NCBI GenBank assembly: GCA_017640785.1
Contig: JAEPPZ010000002.1
Location: 1-64,000, forward strand
Direction: 5' to 3'
Origin: Balneola sp.
GTDB taxonomy: Bacteria; Bacteroidota; Rhodothermia; Balneolales; Balneolaceae
DNA: 64,000 nt
The first letter of the stretch is position 1, and each line of letters starts with the position of its first letter. Shown in pieces: positions 5,646-10,174 of this stretch. The position numbers and the translations under genes were made by a program. Under the pieces are notes generated by a model. The model worked only from the letters and a program-made list of their open reading frames with translations, had not been told where the DNA came from and searched no databases.

Positions 5646-6500
5646 TCAACCGCCACTTTGATGTAACCTGATGATTTCAGAATAGTTCATATCGTCTAGA
5701 AGATCTCTTTGGTAAAGACCTTGCAAAAATCCTTCAGATACACCTGATGTATATAAACCGATTATCCCTGAATAATTTACCTCGTCCAGATAGTCTACAT
5801 CATCCAACGTAGATAAATAGCTTTCAGGTACTCCGGAAGTATATAAACCAATGATTCCGGAGTAATTCACCTCATCCAGGTAATCTATATTTTCTAAATG
5901 CTCAATATAATTGATCGGTACCCCGCTTGTGTATAAACCGATAACACCGGAATAATTAACTTCGTCCAAATAATCCAGATCTTCAAGACCGCTGATATAC
6001 TCACTGGTTATTCCATTACTATTTAAAGCAATTACACTGGAATAATTTAACTCCCCCAAATAATCAACATCATCCAGAGCTTCAAGATAATCTATGGAAA
6101 CTCCGCTGTTATACAAGGTTGTAATTTGAGACGTTGAAGGAGTACTTCCGAAATCCAATTGCCTTACCCGATCCAAATAGTCAAGTTGTGGGATGCTCAT
6201 AACATCTGAATTGGAATTTTGACCAAAAGACTGAGTCTCTTCACTCTCAAATAAATTAGTTATAGAAGTTCCAATACCATATGCAGCTTTCATCGGACTC
6301 CAATCAAAGCGCCACAAAACTGCAACTATAATGAAGATCCCGATAACCCAGGTGTTTCTTCTGGATAAGATATCTTCCGGATCTGAAGGTTTTCGCTTTT
6401 CTTTGGGAGCTTCTTCACTATAAAAATCAGAGAAATCTTTTTCTTCTTCACTAGAATCAAGATCGTTGGTAAGTCTGTTTTTATTTCTTTGTCTGCTCAT
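5646..6500 (-). CDS. Membrane protein with five tandem 30-residue 'YLDEVNYSGIIGLYTSGV' repeats
   Basis: The N-terminal 45 residues are highly charged, one membrane span follows at about 50-66 (WVIGIFIIVAVLW), then a spacer, and from residue 106 to the end come tandem units of exactly 30 residues: D-Y-L-D-E-V-N-Y-S-G-I-I-G-L-Y-T-S-G-V then x-x-x-Y-L-x-x-L-x-x-x. Units 3 to 5 are nearly identical in protein but differ in silent positions. The pattern (Leu/Ile heptad spacing with G-V-x-x-x-Y-I) resembles helical repeats seen beside BlaR1-type M56 peptidases and sigma-factor regulators, which suggests a protein-binding solenoid outside the membrane. That comparison is from memory and unproved. 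A stop lies directly before the convergent PH-domain gene. Confidence 0.75.
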   Translation of the reverse strand: MSRQRNKNRLTNDLDSSEEEKDFSDFYSEEAPKEKRKPSDPEDILSRRNTWVIGIFIIVAVLWRFDWSPMKAAYGIGTSITNLFESEETQSFGQNSNSDVMSIPQLDYLDRVRQLDFGSTPSTSQITTLYNSGVSIDYLEALDDVDYLGELNYSSVIALNSNGITSEYISGLEDLDYLDEVNYSGVIGLYTSGVPINYIEHLENIDYLDEVNYSGIIGLYTSGVPESYLSTLDDVDYLDEVNYSGIIGLYTSGVSEGFLQGLYQRDLLDDMNYSEIIRLHQSGG

Positions 6501-7835: not shown

Positions 7836-8690
7836 ATGAATTTTAGAAAGACTACACTTTATTTTTCAATATTCATTTTAGGTATCATTCTGTTTGATGC
7901 CCTTCAGCAACAATATTATCTATCCACTTATGATATTGTAGAAGATGGAGCAAACATCGCTTTTTCAACCCTTTTTATTAATCACCTTATTCGATGGATT
8001 GCATGGGGTGTTTGTGGGATTCCTTTGCTTGTTGTCTCCTGGAAGCAGTTTTCAAAGTCGAATCAACAAATTTCTTCATCTCATTGGATAGTCATATTAA
8101 CAGTTGGTGTCATTGGGTGGATCGTTTCGATCTTATTAATCAGCCTGATCGCTATACTTTCATATGATGAAGGCTTATCCATCACTGAACTATTATCAAC
8201 TGCTGAGTTTTTTGTTTACCAGAAAGGGATAACCTTTCTTTTTGCGTATTGTGTTCTTGTTTTAACTTTATACAGTAGTTCCAAAAATTTAGTTATTGAC
8301 GCTCAATGGATTGAGATCAAAGACTTAAAATCAAATACTGAGATCAGCAACGAAATCTCTCCTCATCCTCAAATAAGCATAAAAATAGGAAACAGACTCA
8401 AGTTGATCCCTCTGAATGAAGTAACTTGGATAGAAGCAGATGATTACTGTGTAAAAATACATACAGAGCGTAAAGCTTATTCAATGAGAAAAAGCATGAA
8501 ATCTCTGGAAGAACAGCTAGCGTCGTATCGCTTTATTCGGGTTCACAGAGGAGCATTGTTAAATCTTGGATATCTTGATCATGTTGACTTCGAATCTTCA
8601 CTTATAAAATTGCAAGATTCCTCTGAACTGCCTCTATCAAAATCGGGAGCTCAGGTACTTCGCAAAGCGTTGAAAGCAAGTTCCATTTAA
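7836..8690 (+). CDS. Membrane-anchored LytTR-domain transcription regulator, 284 aa
   Basis: Four hydrophobic spans fill residues 8-25, 48-70, 83-108 and 126-148. A linker follows and a LytTR DNA-binding domain covers about 176-280: I-S-I-K-I-G-N-R-L-K-L-I-P-L then E-V-T-W-I-E-A-D-D-Y-C-V, S-M-R-K-S-M-K-S-L-E, F-I-R-V-H-R-G-A-L-L-N and a final L-S-K-S-G-A-Q. There is no receiver domain, so it is not a two-component regulator; the membrane part probably senses the signal or binds a partner. Just past the stop codon lies a 21-bp-phased direct repeat of the type LytTR proteins bind, placed before the next gene, which is a good candidate target. Activation or repression cannot be told from sequence. 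Confidence 0.85.
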   Translation: MNFRKTTLYFSIFILGIILFDALQQQYYLSTYDIVEDGANIAFSTLFINHLIRWIAWGVCGIPLLVVSWKQFSKSNQQISSSHWIVILTVGVIGWIVSILLISLIAILSYDEGLSITELLSTAEFFVYQKGITFLFAYCVLVLTLYSSSKNLVIDAQWIEIKDLKSNTEISNEISPHPQISIKIGNRLKLIPLNEVTWIEADDYCVKIHTERKAYSMRKSMKSLEEQLASYRFIRVHRGALLNLGYLDHVDFESSLIKLQDSSELPLSKSGAQVLRKALKASSI

Positions 8691-8724
8691 TTAACTGCAA
8701 ATGCAGGCTGATTTACTGCATTTA
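8691..8724 (+). promoter_or_regulatory. Candidate LytTR operator: 9-bp direct repeats spaced 21 bp
   Basis: TTAACTGCA (8691-8699) and TTTACTGCA (8712-8720) match at 8 of 9 bases and start exactly 21 bp apart, two helical turns. LytTR regulators bind pairs of 9-bp direct repeats with this spacing. The first copy also lies in a palindrome CTGCAAATGCAG (8695-8706). It sits between the LytTR gene and the secreted-protein gene at 8769. Confidence 0.55.
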
Positions 8725-8768: not shown

Positions 8769-9341
8769 ATGAAAATAATTTCATTCACTATCCTATTCTT
8801 CATTATTGCAGTACCGACATTTGCTCAATACAAATATGAGCCAAACAAAGAAAATCCATTCGGACAGTTAAATCCGGCTGCATTTCCACAAACCGGAGAC
8901 TTTGCTCCATTAATTGGTGTTAGTGAATGTATTTCTGAAAGCAGAGCTCCTGACGGCTCCTGGAATGATGAAGTTGATATGCTCTGGAAATGGAAATATA
9001 TAATGAATGGAATGGCTGTTCAGGATGAAACACTTAAAGCGGATGGCTTACATTCCGGCAGTATTCGCCAGTTTAATGCAGACAGCAGTAAATGGTATGT
9101 ACACTATTACTCCTCTGTGCCGGCCTCTCCCTCGTTAAGTACATGGGAAGGCACTAAGACTGATGAAAGTAAGATCGTGCTTTACAGGCGCCAAGCAGCC
9201 CCAAACGGAACTGATGGCTATTATCGTCTGACGTTCTATGAAATTACCGATGAAAGTTTTAAATGGATCGGTGAATGGGTGAATCTTGGTGAAACGTTTT
9301 CTTATCCAACCTGGAAGATCTCTTGTTCTAAAAAAGGCTGA
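8769..9341 (+). CDS. Secreted DUF1579-like protein, 190 aa
   Basis: The signal peptide is clear (residues 1-19, cleavage after P-T-F-A-Q). The mature part has an L-I-G-V-S-E-C start, then alternating beta strands: W-K-W-K-Y-I-M-N-G, G-S-I-R-Q-F-N, K-W-Y-V-H-Y-Y-S and a final F-K-W-I-G-E-W-V-N-L. This is the pattern of DUF1579 and similar beta-clamp lipocalin-like proteins, whose function is unknown. Two cysteines near the ends of the mature chain (in S-E-C-I-S and I-S-C-S) could form a disulphide bond in the periplasm. The upstream LytTR operator candidate suggests the membrane-anchored regulator controls this gene. Confidence 0.65.
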   Translation: MKIISFTILFFIIAVPTFAQYKYEPNKENPFGQLNPAAFPQTGDFAPLIGVSECISESRAPDGSWNDEVDMLWKWKYIMNGMAVQDETLKADGLHSGSIRQFNADSSKWYVHYYSSVPASPSLSTWEGTKTDESKIVLYRRQAAPNGTDGYYRLTFYEITDESFKWIGEWVNLGETFSYPTWKISCSKKG

Positions 9342-9408: not shown

Positions 9409-9852
9409 ATGAAACATTCAGGATCCATTGTAATCAACAAACCTATTGAGTTGGTAGCCAGGCTTTTTGCTGATCCTGCTAACCTGAAAGAGTATCAGGA
9501 TGGTTTTCAAAGAAAAGAACTCATCAGCGGAGAATCCGGTAAAAATGGAGCCGTGTCCAAAATGTATTACGATGATGGAAAGAGAAAAATGGAACTTACT
9601 GAAACCATCACTTCTAATAATCTTCCTCACTCATTTGAGGCTTTCTATCATCACAAACACATGGATAATACCATGAAGTGTAACTTTACTGCATTGAATG
9701 AGACCAGCACCAGATATGATTACGAATTTGAATACACTCGCATTGACTGGGTGATGCCAAAACTGATGGCTGTTTTGTTTCCCGGAATGTATCGCAAACA
9801 CGGAGATAAATGGATGCAACAATTTAAAGACTTCGTTGAAAGAAATGACTAA
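9409..9852 (+). CDS. SRPBCC-family (START/polyketide-cyclase fold) protein, 147 aa
   Basis: The fold is a helix-grip that binds hydrophobic ligands in a deep pocket. Visible markers are the first strand G-S-I-V-I-N-K-P-I-E-L-V, the short helix with D-P-A-N-L-K-E-Y-Q-D-G-F, the W/Y-rich central strands and a C-terminal amphipathic helix ending K-D-F-V-E-R. Length is normal. An AAAGGAG ribosome site (9397-9403) five bases before the ATG supports this start. Its stop overlaps the ATG of the next gene by eight bases, so the two are translated together. Its ligand and reaction are unknown. Confidence 0.8.
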   Translation: MKHSGSIVINKPIELVARLFADPANLKEYQDGFQRKELISGESGKNGAVSKMYYDDGKRKMELTETITSNNLPHSFEAFYHHKHMDNTMKCNFTALNETSTRYDYEFEYTRIDWVMPKLMAVLFPGMYRKHGDKWMQQFKDFVERND

Positions 9853-10174
9853 ATGGGAAGAACGACTTAAACTTTACGATAAACTGGTCGCAAAATGCTC
9901 CCGTTTTGAACGTAAAGGTAAAACCATGCCCTACACCTCTGCCAATGGTTATATGTTTTCACAGATGAATAAATCCGGTGAAATTGGCATTCGCTTTTCC
10001 AAAGAAGTTCAGAAAAAATATCTGGAAGATTTTAATACAACACTCTATAGATCCTATGGTTCTGTAATGCAGGGTTATATTCTGATTCCGGATGAAATGC
10101 TGGAAGATTTGAATCCCGTTTCAAAACTACTCGATGAGAGCTATGATTATGTGATGGGTTTGGAGCCTAAATGA
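9845..10174 (+). CDS. TfoX/Sxy N-terminal-like small protein, 109 aa
   Basis: The preferred start is the ATG at 9845 (MTKWEERLKL), which overlaps the end of the SRPBCC gene by eight bases; a TTG at 9836 would add three residues. The sequence has the pattern W-E-E-R-L-x-L-Y-D-K-L-V, then G-K-T-M-P-Y-T-S-A-N-G-Y-M-F-S and G-Y-I-L-I-P-D-E-M-L, typical of small proteins related to the TfoX N-terminal domain. These often sit beside SRPBCC proteins, as here. Competence regulation is known for full-length TfoX but cannot be assumed for this short form, which lacks the C-terminal domain. Confidence 0.65.
   Translation: MTKWEERLKLYDKLVAKCSRFERKGKTMPYTSANGYMFSQMNKSGEIGIRFSKEVQKKYLEDFNTTLYRSYGSVMQGYILIPDEMLEDLNPVSKLLDESYDYVMGLEPK

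Follow-up and report, generated by a model that had tools for sequence, protein, structure and literature searches.

Membrane-bound transcription factors are widespread, and operator and target are known for few of them. A locus in Balneola sp. (contig JAEPPZ010000002.1) raises the question of whether all three parts of such a system can be read from genomes: are two short direct repeats, lying between the gene of a membrane-anchored LytTR protein and the gene of a secreted protein, the site through which the first controls the second? An earlier note, made from the letters of the DNA, had proposed that they are, and that regulator, operator and target form a self-contained unit without a two-component system. 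We followed this proposal in the window (the whole 64,000-nucleotide stretch analyzed, from GenBank assembly GCA_017640785.1), in the genome to which it belongs, and at related loci across the Bacteroidota.

The two repeats lie where they had been placed. Half-site 1, TTAACTGCA, occupies positions 8691-8699 of the plus strand and begins on the first base after the LytTR stop codon, and half-site 2, TTTACTGCA, follows at 8712-8720 on the same strand. Both fit TTWACTGCA exactly, and their starts are 21 bp apart with a 12-bp spacer; the interval as first delimited ends at 8724, 4 bases beyond the second repeat. From the end of half-site 2 to the target ATG there are 48 bp, and the gap between the LytTR and target genes is 78 bp. 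On the reverse strand the site has the core GCAGTTAA, which we take to resemble canonical LytTR sites (AgrA) and which, read in this direction, points away from the target. LytTR sites, as described in the part of PMC4847170 used here, are paired repeats of 9-11 nt with spacers of 11-13 nt and without a common consensus. The 9-nt repeats and 12-nt spacer of this locus fall within those limits and also agree with the LytTR sites of PMC11347149, and because LytTR sites share no strict consensus, the binder cannot be named from sequence alone.

The degenerate pair has a sole zero-mismatch match in the window. The exact pair is likewise unique in the genome of 3,394,651 bases, which holds no second exact site and whose runner-up has 2 mismatches and lies inside an ORF. 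Judged on this single sequence, the pair is not beyond chance, because similar 9-mers 21 bp apart are common: in 31 frames of the window, 9-mers at spacing 21 agree in 8 or more of their 9 positions, and the counts for other spacings run from 6 to 37. Its significance comes from its conservation at related loci. Another 21 bp upstream of half-site 1 (8670-8678, plus strand), TTGAAAGCA may be a weak third half-site; it falls inside the LytTR coding region, where it codes for LKA. It is similar in several orthologs, and protein conservation alone may account for this third copy; CoxC and RcoM are described as having three repeats each (PMC11347149 for CoxC, in the sections consulted).

The gene upstream of the repeats (7836-8690, plus strand) encodes a protein of 284 aa, characterized by its ORF, Pfam, AlphaFold, Foldseek and orthologs as a putative membrane-anchored LytTR transcription regulator. 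Its LytTR DNA-binding domain (PF04397, residues 187-279; 8394-8672, plus strand) scores 71.2 or 73.8 bits, depending on the scan, against a cut-off of 22.6 (Pfam E 9e-20), and FIRVHRG at residues 233-239 is a form of the FhRhHRS motif, with F233, R235, H237 and R238 invariant among 19 orthologs. A domain above the curated cut-off together with a motif of this type places the protein in the LytTR family, and Foldseek matches the domain to AgrA (3bs1, TM 0.85 by target), ComE (4cbv) and 3d6w. The AlphaFold model (pLDDT 85) has helices at residues 3-32, 43-74 and 81-109 and at the start of 116-171, the fourth being long and running into the C-terminal LytTR domain. With predicted membrane helices and LytTR as the only domain found by Pfam, the protein has the composition of a transmembrane one-component regulator. 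The four predicted helices agree with the membrane anchor claimed earlier, and the stop codon at 8690 directly precedes repeat 1.

Foldseek with the four-helix sensor part alone returned no informative match. Across the eight Balneolaceae sequences the N-terminal residues D21, Q24, Q25, H50, R53, W54, W57, F125, Q129 and K130 are conserved, several of them phylum-wide as well, as would be expected of a conserved sensor. The neighboring ORFs scanned contain neither a sensor kinase nor a receiver domain, in line with the proposed independence from a two-component system. The genome has five LytTR reading frames; the membrane LytTR is the longest, and the other four are of response-regulator length.

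A divergent glycosyltransferase gene lies upstream of the LytTR ORF, and the target is followed by genes for an SRPBCC protein, a TfoX_N-like protein (weak, E 0.005), an AAA protein and a DUF3817 protein. The SRPBCC and TfoX_N-like proteins (9409-10171) also follow the target in G001 and G004, and a TfoX_N-like gene does so in G039 and G040 (G numbers denote genomes). A minus-strand ORF at 5646-6500 carries tandem internal repeats of the YLDEVNYSGIIGLYTSGV type; it is conserved near the glycosyltransferase gene in relatives, and its length varies among them.

The putative target gene (8769-9341, plus strand) encodes a secreted protein of 190 aa, described here from its ORF, conserved columns, AlphaFold and fold comparison. 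Its N terminus is a signal-like helix, MKIISFTILFFIIAVPTFA, and AlphaFold models a ten-stranded beta-barrel (pLDDT 92); cysteines C54 and C186 are invariant, and His112 is conserved in the target alignment. The model aligns with the OlmO spirocyclase at Z 18.6 (rmsd 2.9 over 147 residues, 11% identity) and with nitrobindin at Z about 14 (rmsd 3.5-4), and its identity to the OlmO/nitrobindin structures is 6-15%. We thus predict a barrel of the type found in the OlmO/OssO spirocyclases and nitrobindin, a match of fold that implies no function. The gene had earlier been called secreted and DUF1579-like. The signal-like N terminus fits the first term; the second was rejected for want of profile support: Pfam, DUF1579 included, gave nothing up to E 5 for the window protein and its relatives, and NCBIfam nothing up to E 1 for the target. 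In Aquimarina and Flagellimonas, the target loci are without LytTR and the target carries an additional domain at its C terminus. Such fusions of the target ORF occur in many Flavobacteriaceae (loci L081, L082, L086, L094, L103, L124, and L131), nearly all without an adjacent LytTR, although L124 has one; in L082, the one scanned, the fused domain matches DUF4440/SnoaL-like.

To assess conservation, we used 92 genomes of the Balneolaceae, among them G001, which belongs to the same genus as the window genome. An ortholog of the LytTR gene is present in 8 of the 92 (43-100% identity) and the target, by strong matches, in 15; all eight LytTR orthologs lie directly upstream of a target ortholog. 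Between the two genes, these loci carry TTNMCTGCA-like pairs spaced exactly 21 bp apart, such as TTTACTGCA/TTAACTGCA in G039, TTCACTGCA/TTCCCTGCA in G035 and CTTACTGCA/TTTACTGCA in G003, and G033 has one clean copy and one decayed copy, TTCCCTGAT. No such pair was found at the seven family target loci that lack LytTR. In G002, G004 and G006, the closest relatives without LytTR, the regulator gene and the repeats are missing together, and the target is directly divergent from the same glycosyltransferase gene as in the window.

Scanning contigs of the phylum with the target alignment recovered 80 loci, 17 of them with a LytTR gene directly upstream. Eleven of the 17 lie outside the Balneolaceae, in Hanstruepera, Jejuia and Dokdonia (Flavobacteriaceae), Roseivirga, Ekhidna, the Saprospiraceae and others. 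Combined with the loci from the family genomes, the set comprises 19 loci with LytTR (8 from Balneolaceae and 11 from other Bacteroidota) and 67 without. The consensus TTNMCTGCA-N12-TTNMCTGCA recurs in the 19 loci with LytTR while the surrounding DNA is scrambled: 17 have two clear copies (for example, GCAACTGCG/CTTACTGCA in L126), and two, G033 and L148, have one clear and one degenerate copy. L124, from a Bacteroidia metagenome-assembled genome, carries four TTNACTGCA-like half-sites forming two 21-bp pairs (L124:3818-3930) in a LytTR-target gap of 183 bp.

The earlier note had named absence of the repeats at orthologous loci as what would speak against it, and had asked for the spacing to be compared upstream of homologous genes. 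The repeats are present at 19 of 19 loci with LytTR, in the same 21-bp register, and none of the 67 target loci without an adjacent LytTR carries the pair; their co-occurrence with the LytTR gene is obligatory. Scored as the best 21-bp pair within 220 bp upstream of the target (maximum 18), all loci with LytTR reach 16-18 and all those without reach 10-14, with no overlap; TTNMCTGCA can be derived from the Balneolaceae copies alone, and the other gaps had already been inspected before scoring. Fisher's test of repeats against LytTR presence gives a p of about 2e-19, ignoring relatedness. This simple value is inflated by related sequences, and we therefore counted changes on the target tree. 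The best tree has about 14 changes in LytTR presence, of which at least 4 fall on well supported branches; the repeats change with LytTR in 4 of 4 independent pairs, a number that cannot reach significance by a sign test.

The spacing also emerges without reference to the motif. Taking the 75 nt that follow the stop codon of LytTR, we compared the best 9-mer self-match at each spacing from 12 to 35 with that in shuffles, and 21 bp alone stands out (z +10.5, the others within about 2.5); in the same test, other family LytTR genes, most of them encoding response regulators, reach +2.1. Across 100 bp, column information peaks on both 9-mers, with C, T, G, C and A mostly at 1.7-2.0 bits, and this CTGCA part is nearly invariant across the 19 loci. 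A weaker A/T pair follows repeat 1, and most other columns are low in information, so that within the gap hardly anything besides the repeats is conserved. The repeats persist where the proteins share 26-30% identity, a distance at which neutral DNA is randomized.

Searching motif first, with the exact TTNACTGCA-N12-TTNACTGCA sequence in 394 genomes of the phylum, gave eight matches, three of them at LytTR-target loci. The other five fall within unrelated ORFs or at their edges and were judged to be chance because neither LytTR nor target is nearby. A phylum search with the full LytTR alignment returned mostly response regulators among the best few candidates per genome.

Since the repeats are kept at the same spacing together with both genes, and are missing where the regulator is missing, they are very probably the switch by which the LytTR protein controls its neighbor. 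We hold with high confidence, from the comparison of loci, that they are the operator of the upstream membrane LytTR in a one-component cassette of regulator, operator and secreted target. In this mechanism, the four membrane helices would sense an envelope or extracellular signal, so that sensing presumably takes place at the membrane. Two LytTR domains would then occupy the two TTNACTGCA half-sites, which lie on one helix face two turns apart, and the bound regulator would act on the promoter of the downstream barrel gene. Binding of the repeats by the membrane LytTR and its regulation of the secreted gene are thus the steps that we infer.

The sign of this control leans slightly toward activation, because the operator, 48 bp ahead of the ATG, lies upstream of the stretch that must hold the promoter, and because most LytTR regulators activate from upstream sites. 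In the sections consulted, most LytTR regulators, LRS among them, are described as activators with sites upstream of -35 (PMC6193735, PMC11347149), and CoxC as a repressor whose site overlaps -35 (PMC11347149). No recognizable promoter was found at a fixed place after the repeats, and a sigma-70 scan stayed at chance level. At 53-59 bp downstream of the start of repeat 1 there is a weak TAnnTTTG-like signal (p 0.004 when compared with simple shuffles); given its position, the operator would lie at the -33 region or just upstream of it, which mildly favors activation.

Could the conserved element act as RNA instead, as a hairpin or terminator that closes the LytTR transcript or as a structure in the leader of the target mRNA? 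The window copy does overlap a perfect 8-bp inverted repeat with a 9-nt loop (AAATGCAG/CTGCATTT, 8699-8723), one arm of which is broken in G001 (AAACACAG) and which is absent from the other orthologs. RNAalifold yields a 4-pair stem of nearly invariant bases at -0.83 kcal/mol with no compensatory pair, and no terminator-like site is listed at the hairpin. What is conserved is a direct repeat in a fixed register with a variable spacer, not a hairpin, and conserved RNA structure is absent. We regard the inverted repeat as incidental because it is not conserved in orthologs, and rejected a hairpin or terminator at these positions, given the lack of both conservation and covariation; a role as RNA is barely credible. 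There is also next to no chance that the LytTR gene and the repeats are a small mobile insertion whose scars or ends the repeats represent. That account would suit the patchy presence of LytTR on the target tree, with its roughly 14 changes, and the loci of G002, G004 and G006, where the target stands beside the glycosyltransferase gene and LytTR is missing. Against it, the gene has both copies on one side, so that they cannot be two insertion ends, and they persist at a divergence that randomizes neutral DNA.

Two further accounts accept a binding site and question its partner or its client. The repeats could merely adjoin the membrane LytTR gene and bind another protein, for example, one of the four LytTRs of response-regulator length, and other LytTR proteins do occur in this genome and in many relatives. 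The repeats are gone exactly when the membrane LytTR is absent, however, with other LytTRs remaining (as in G002, G004, G006, G023 and G029), which makes another binder very unlikely. Alternatively, the operator could serve mainly the LytTR gene itself, by feedback at its 3' end or control of read-through, the downstream gene being incidental: the repeats touch the LytTR stop codon, and the 78-bp gap makes read-through transcription possible. Yet LytTR and target follow one another in the same orientation across phylum-wide divergence, and no matching repeat precedes the LytTR start. No TTNACTGCA pair was found upstream of the LytTR gene, so there is no sign there, for that sequence, of autoregulation like that of LRS, and we consider this account equally improbable. 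An operator through which the membrane LytTR controls the secreted gene remains the reading that we prefer.

Checking this cassette brought up a second set of loci, which thus does not derive from a census. Other membrane-type LytTR genes in the family have a 21-bp direct repeat of different sequence right after the stop codon. In G029, TACTCATCTT is repeated exactly, and related TNACTC-type copies occur in G022, G026, G015, G034, G091 and G014; at second-clade loci, G001 has a diverged CTTAGAGTAT/CTTAGCTTAT pair and G023 no such pair. A TNACTCANCTT-type repeat of the second clade is seen at L178:2205-2330 and after the LytTR stop codon in L012, L024, L177, L179, L219, L220 and L221. The spacing spectrum of nine second-clade loci has z +7.1 at 21 and a lesser +3.8 at 26. 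Most of these loci continue with a gene for a secreted Dioxygenase_C-like protein, the match coming from scans of G029 and G001. Wherever the region beyond was inspected, a YceI-like gene comes after it, and G091 has a different next gene.

The cassette looks like a recurring module because this related clade has its own 21-bp repeat before a different secreted protein. It is possible, though we propose it only tentatively, that such a module recurs in Bacteroidota: a membrane LytTR gene would have its operator immediately behind its stop codon and through it drive the secreted gene that comes next, the repeats being clade-specific in sequence and unchanged in their 21-bp register, and the layout may hold the operator near the membrane. 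If so, co-transcriptional insertion of the regulator and secretion of the target would keep the operator next to the membrane, and the layout might be an answer to the problem of bringing a membrane-bound transcription factor to its DNA. LytTR specificity could be read from the natural variation in the sister clade, whose repeat differs in sequence and has the same spacing. Comparative genomics here brings a regulator, a precisely defined candidate operator and a single putative target together in one cassette of about 1.5 kb. It is present in cultured marine Bacteroidota such as Roseivirga echinicomitans and Hanstruepera flava, and sensing, binding and output are therefore directly testable.

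Several known systems share parts of this arrangement. The response regulators AgrA and ComE have the LytTR fold and the repeat spacing in common with the regulator described here; unlike it, they are soluble, phosphorylated by kinases and without a membrane domain. ToxR-like one-component transmembrane regulators are likewise membrane-tethered and kinase-free (PMC10269533), and the parts consulted of that survey of transmembrane regulators do not describe a LytTR-operator-target cassette; nor did we find it in the portions consulted of open-licence papers on LytTR in Flavobacteria and Bacteroidetes.

The LRS (HdrRM/BrsRM) also combine a LytTR protein without phosphosignaling, 9-bp repeats with a 12-bp spacer, and membrane involvement (PMC6193735, as far as consulted). 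There, a soluble LytTR is paired with a separate membrane inhibitor and autoregulatory repeats precede the system's own operon, whereas here the LytTR protein itself is predicted to be membrane-bound, the next gene encodes the secreted barrel protein rather than an inhibitor, and the repeats are placed between the regulator gene and its neighbor. LRS-like operons of Bacteroides resemble the present locus in having a Bacteroidota LytTR with several transmembrane segments and nearby direct repeats. Their repeats, as given in Table 3 of PMC6193735, are 11 bp long with an 11-bp spacer, precede an operon that encodes an NfeD/DUF2154 protein, and have the sequence TCCGGTATTCA and relatives, unlike TTNACTGCA here.

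CoxC of Afipia carboxidovorans is a membrane-bound MHYT-LytTR one-component regulator with an N-terminal membrane part and a C-terminal LytTR domain, as here, and it binds direct repeats, TTNNNGCN, at intervals of 18-21 bp at its target promoter, loosely like TTNACTGCA (PMC11347149, in the sections consulted). The two differ in that CoxC has MHYT with seven transmembrane segments, three repeats and the cox genes as targets, compared with four predicted helices without an MHYT Pfam match, two repeats forming a candidate operator, and a single secreted protein as the putative target. Membrane-bound regulation by a single-component LytTR protein is thus already known from CoxC (PMC11347149), and what the comparison of loci supports as new is a one-component membrane LytTR with a private operator placed between the regulator and its single putative secreted target.
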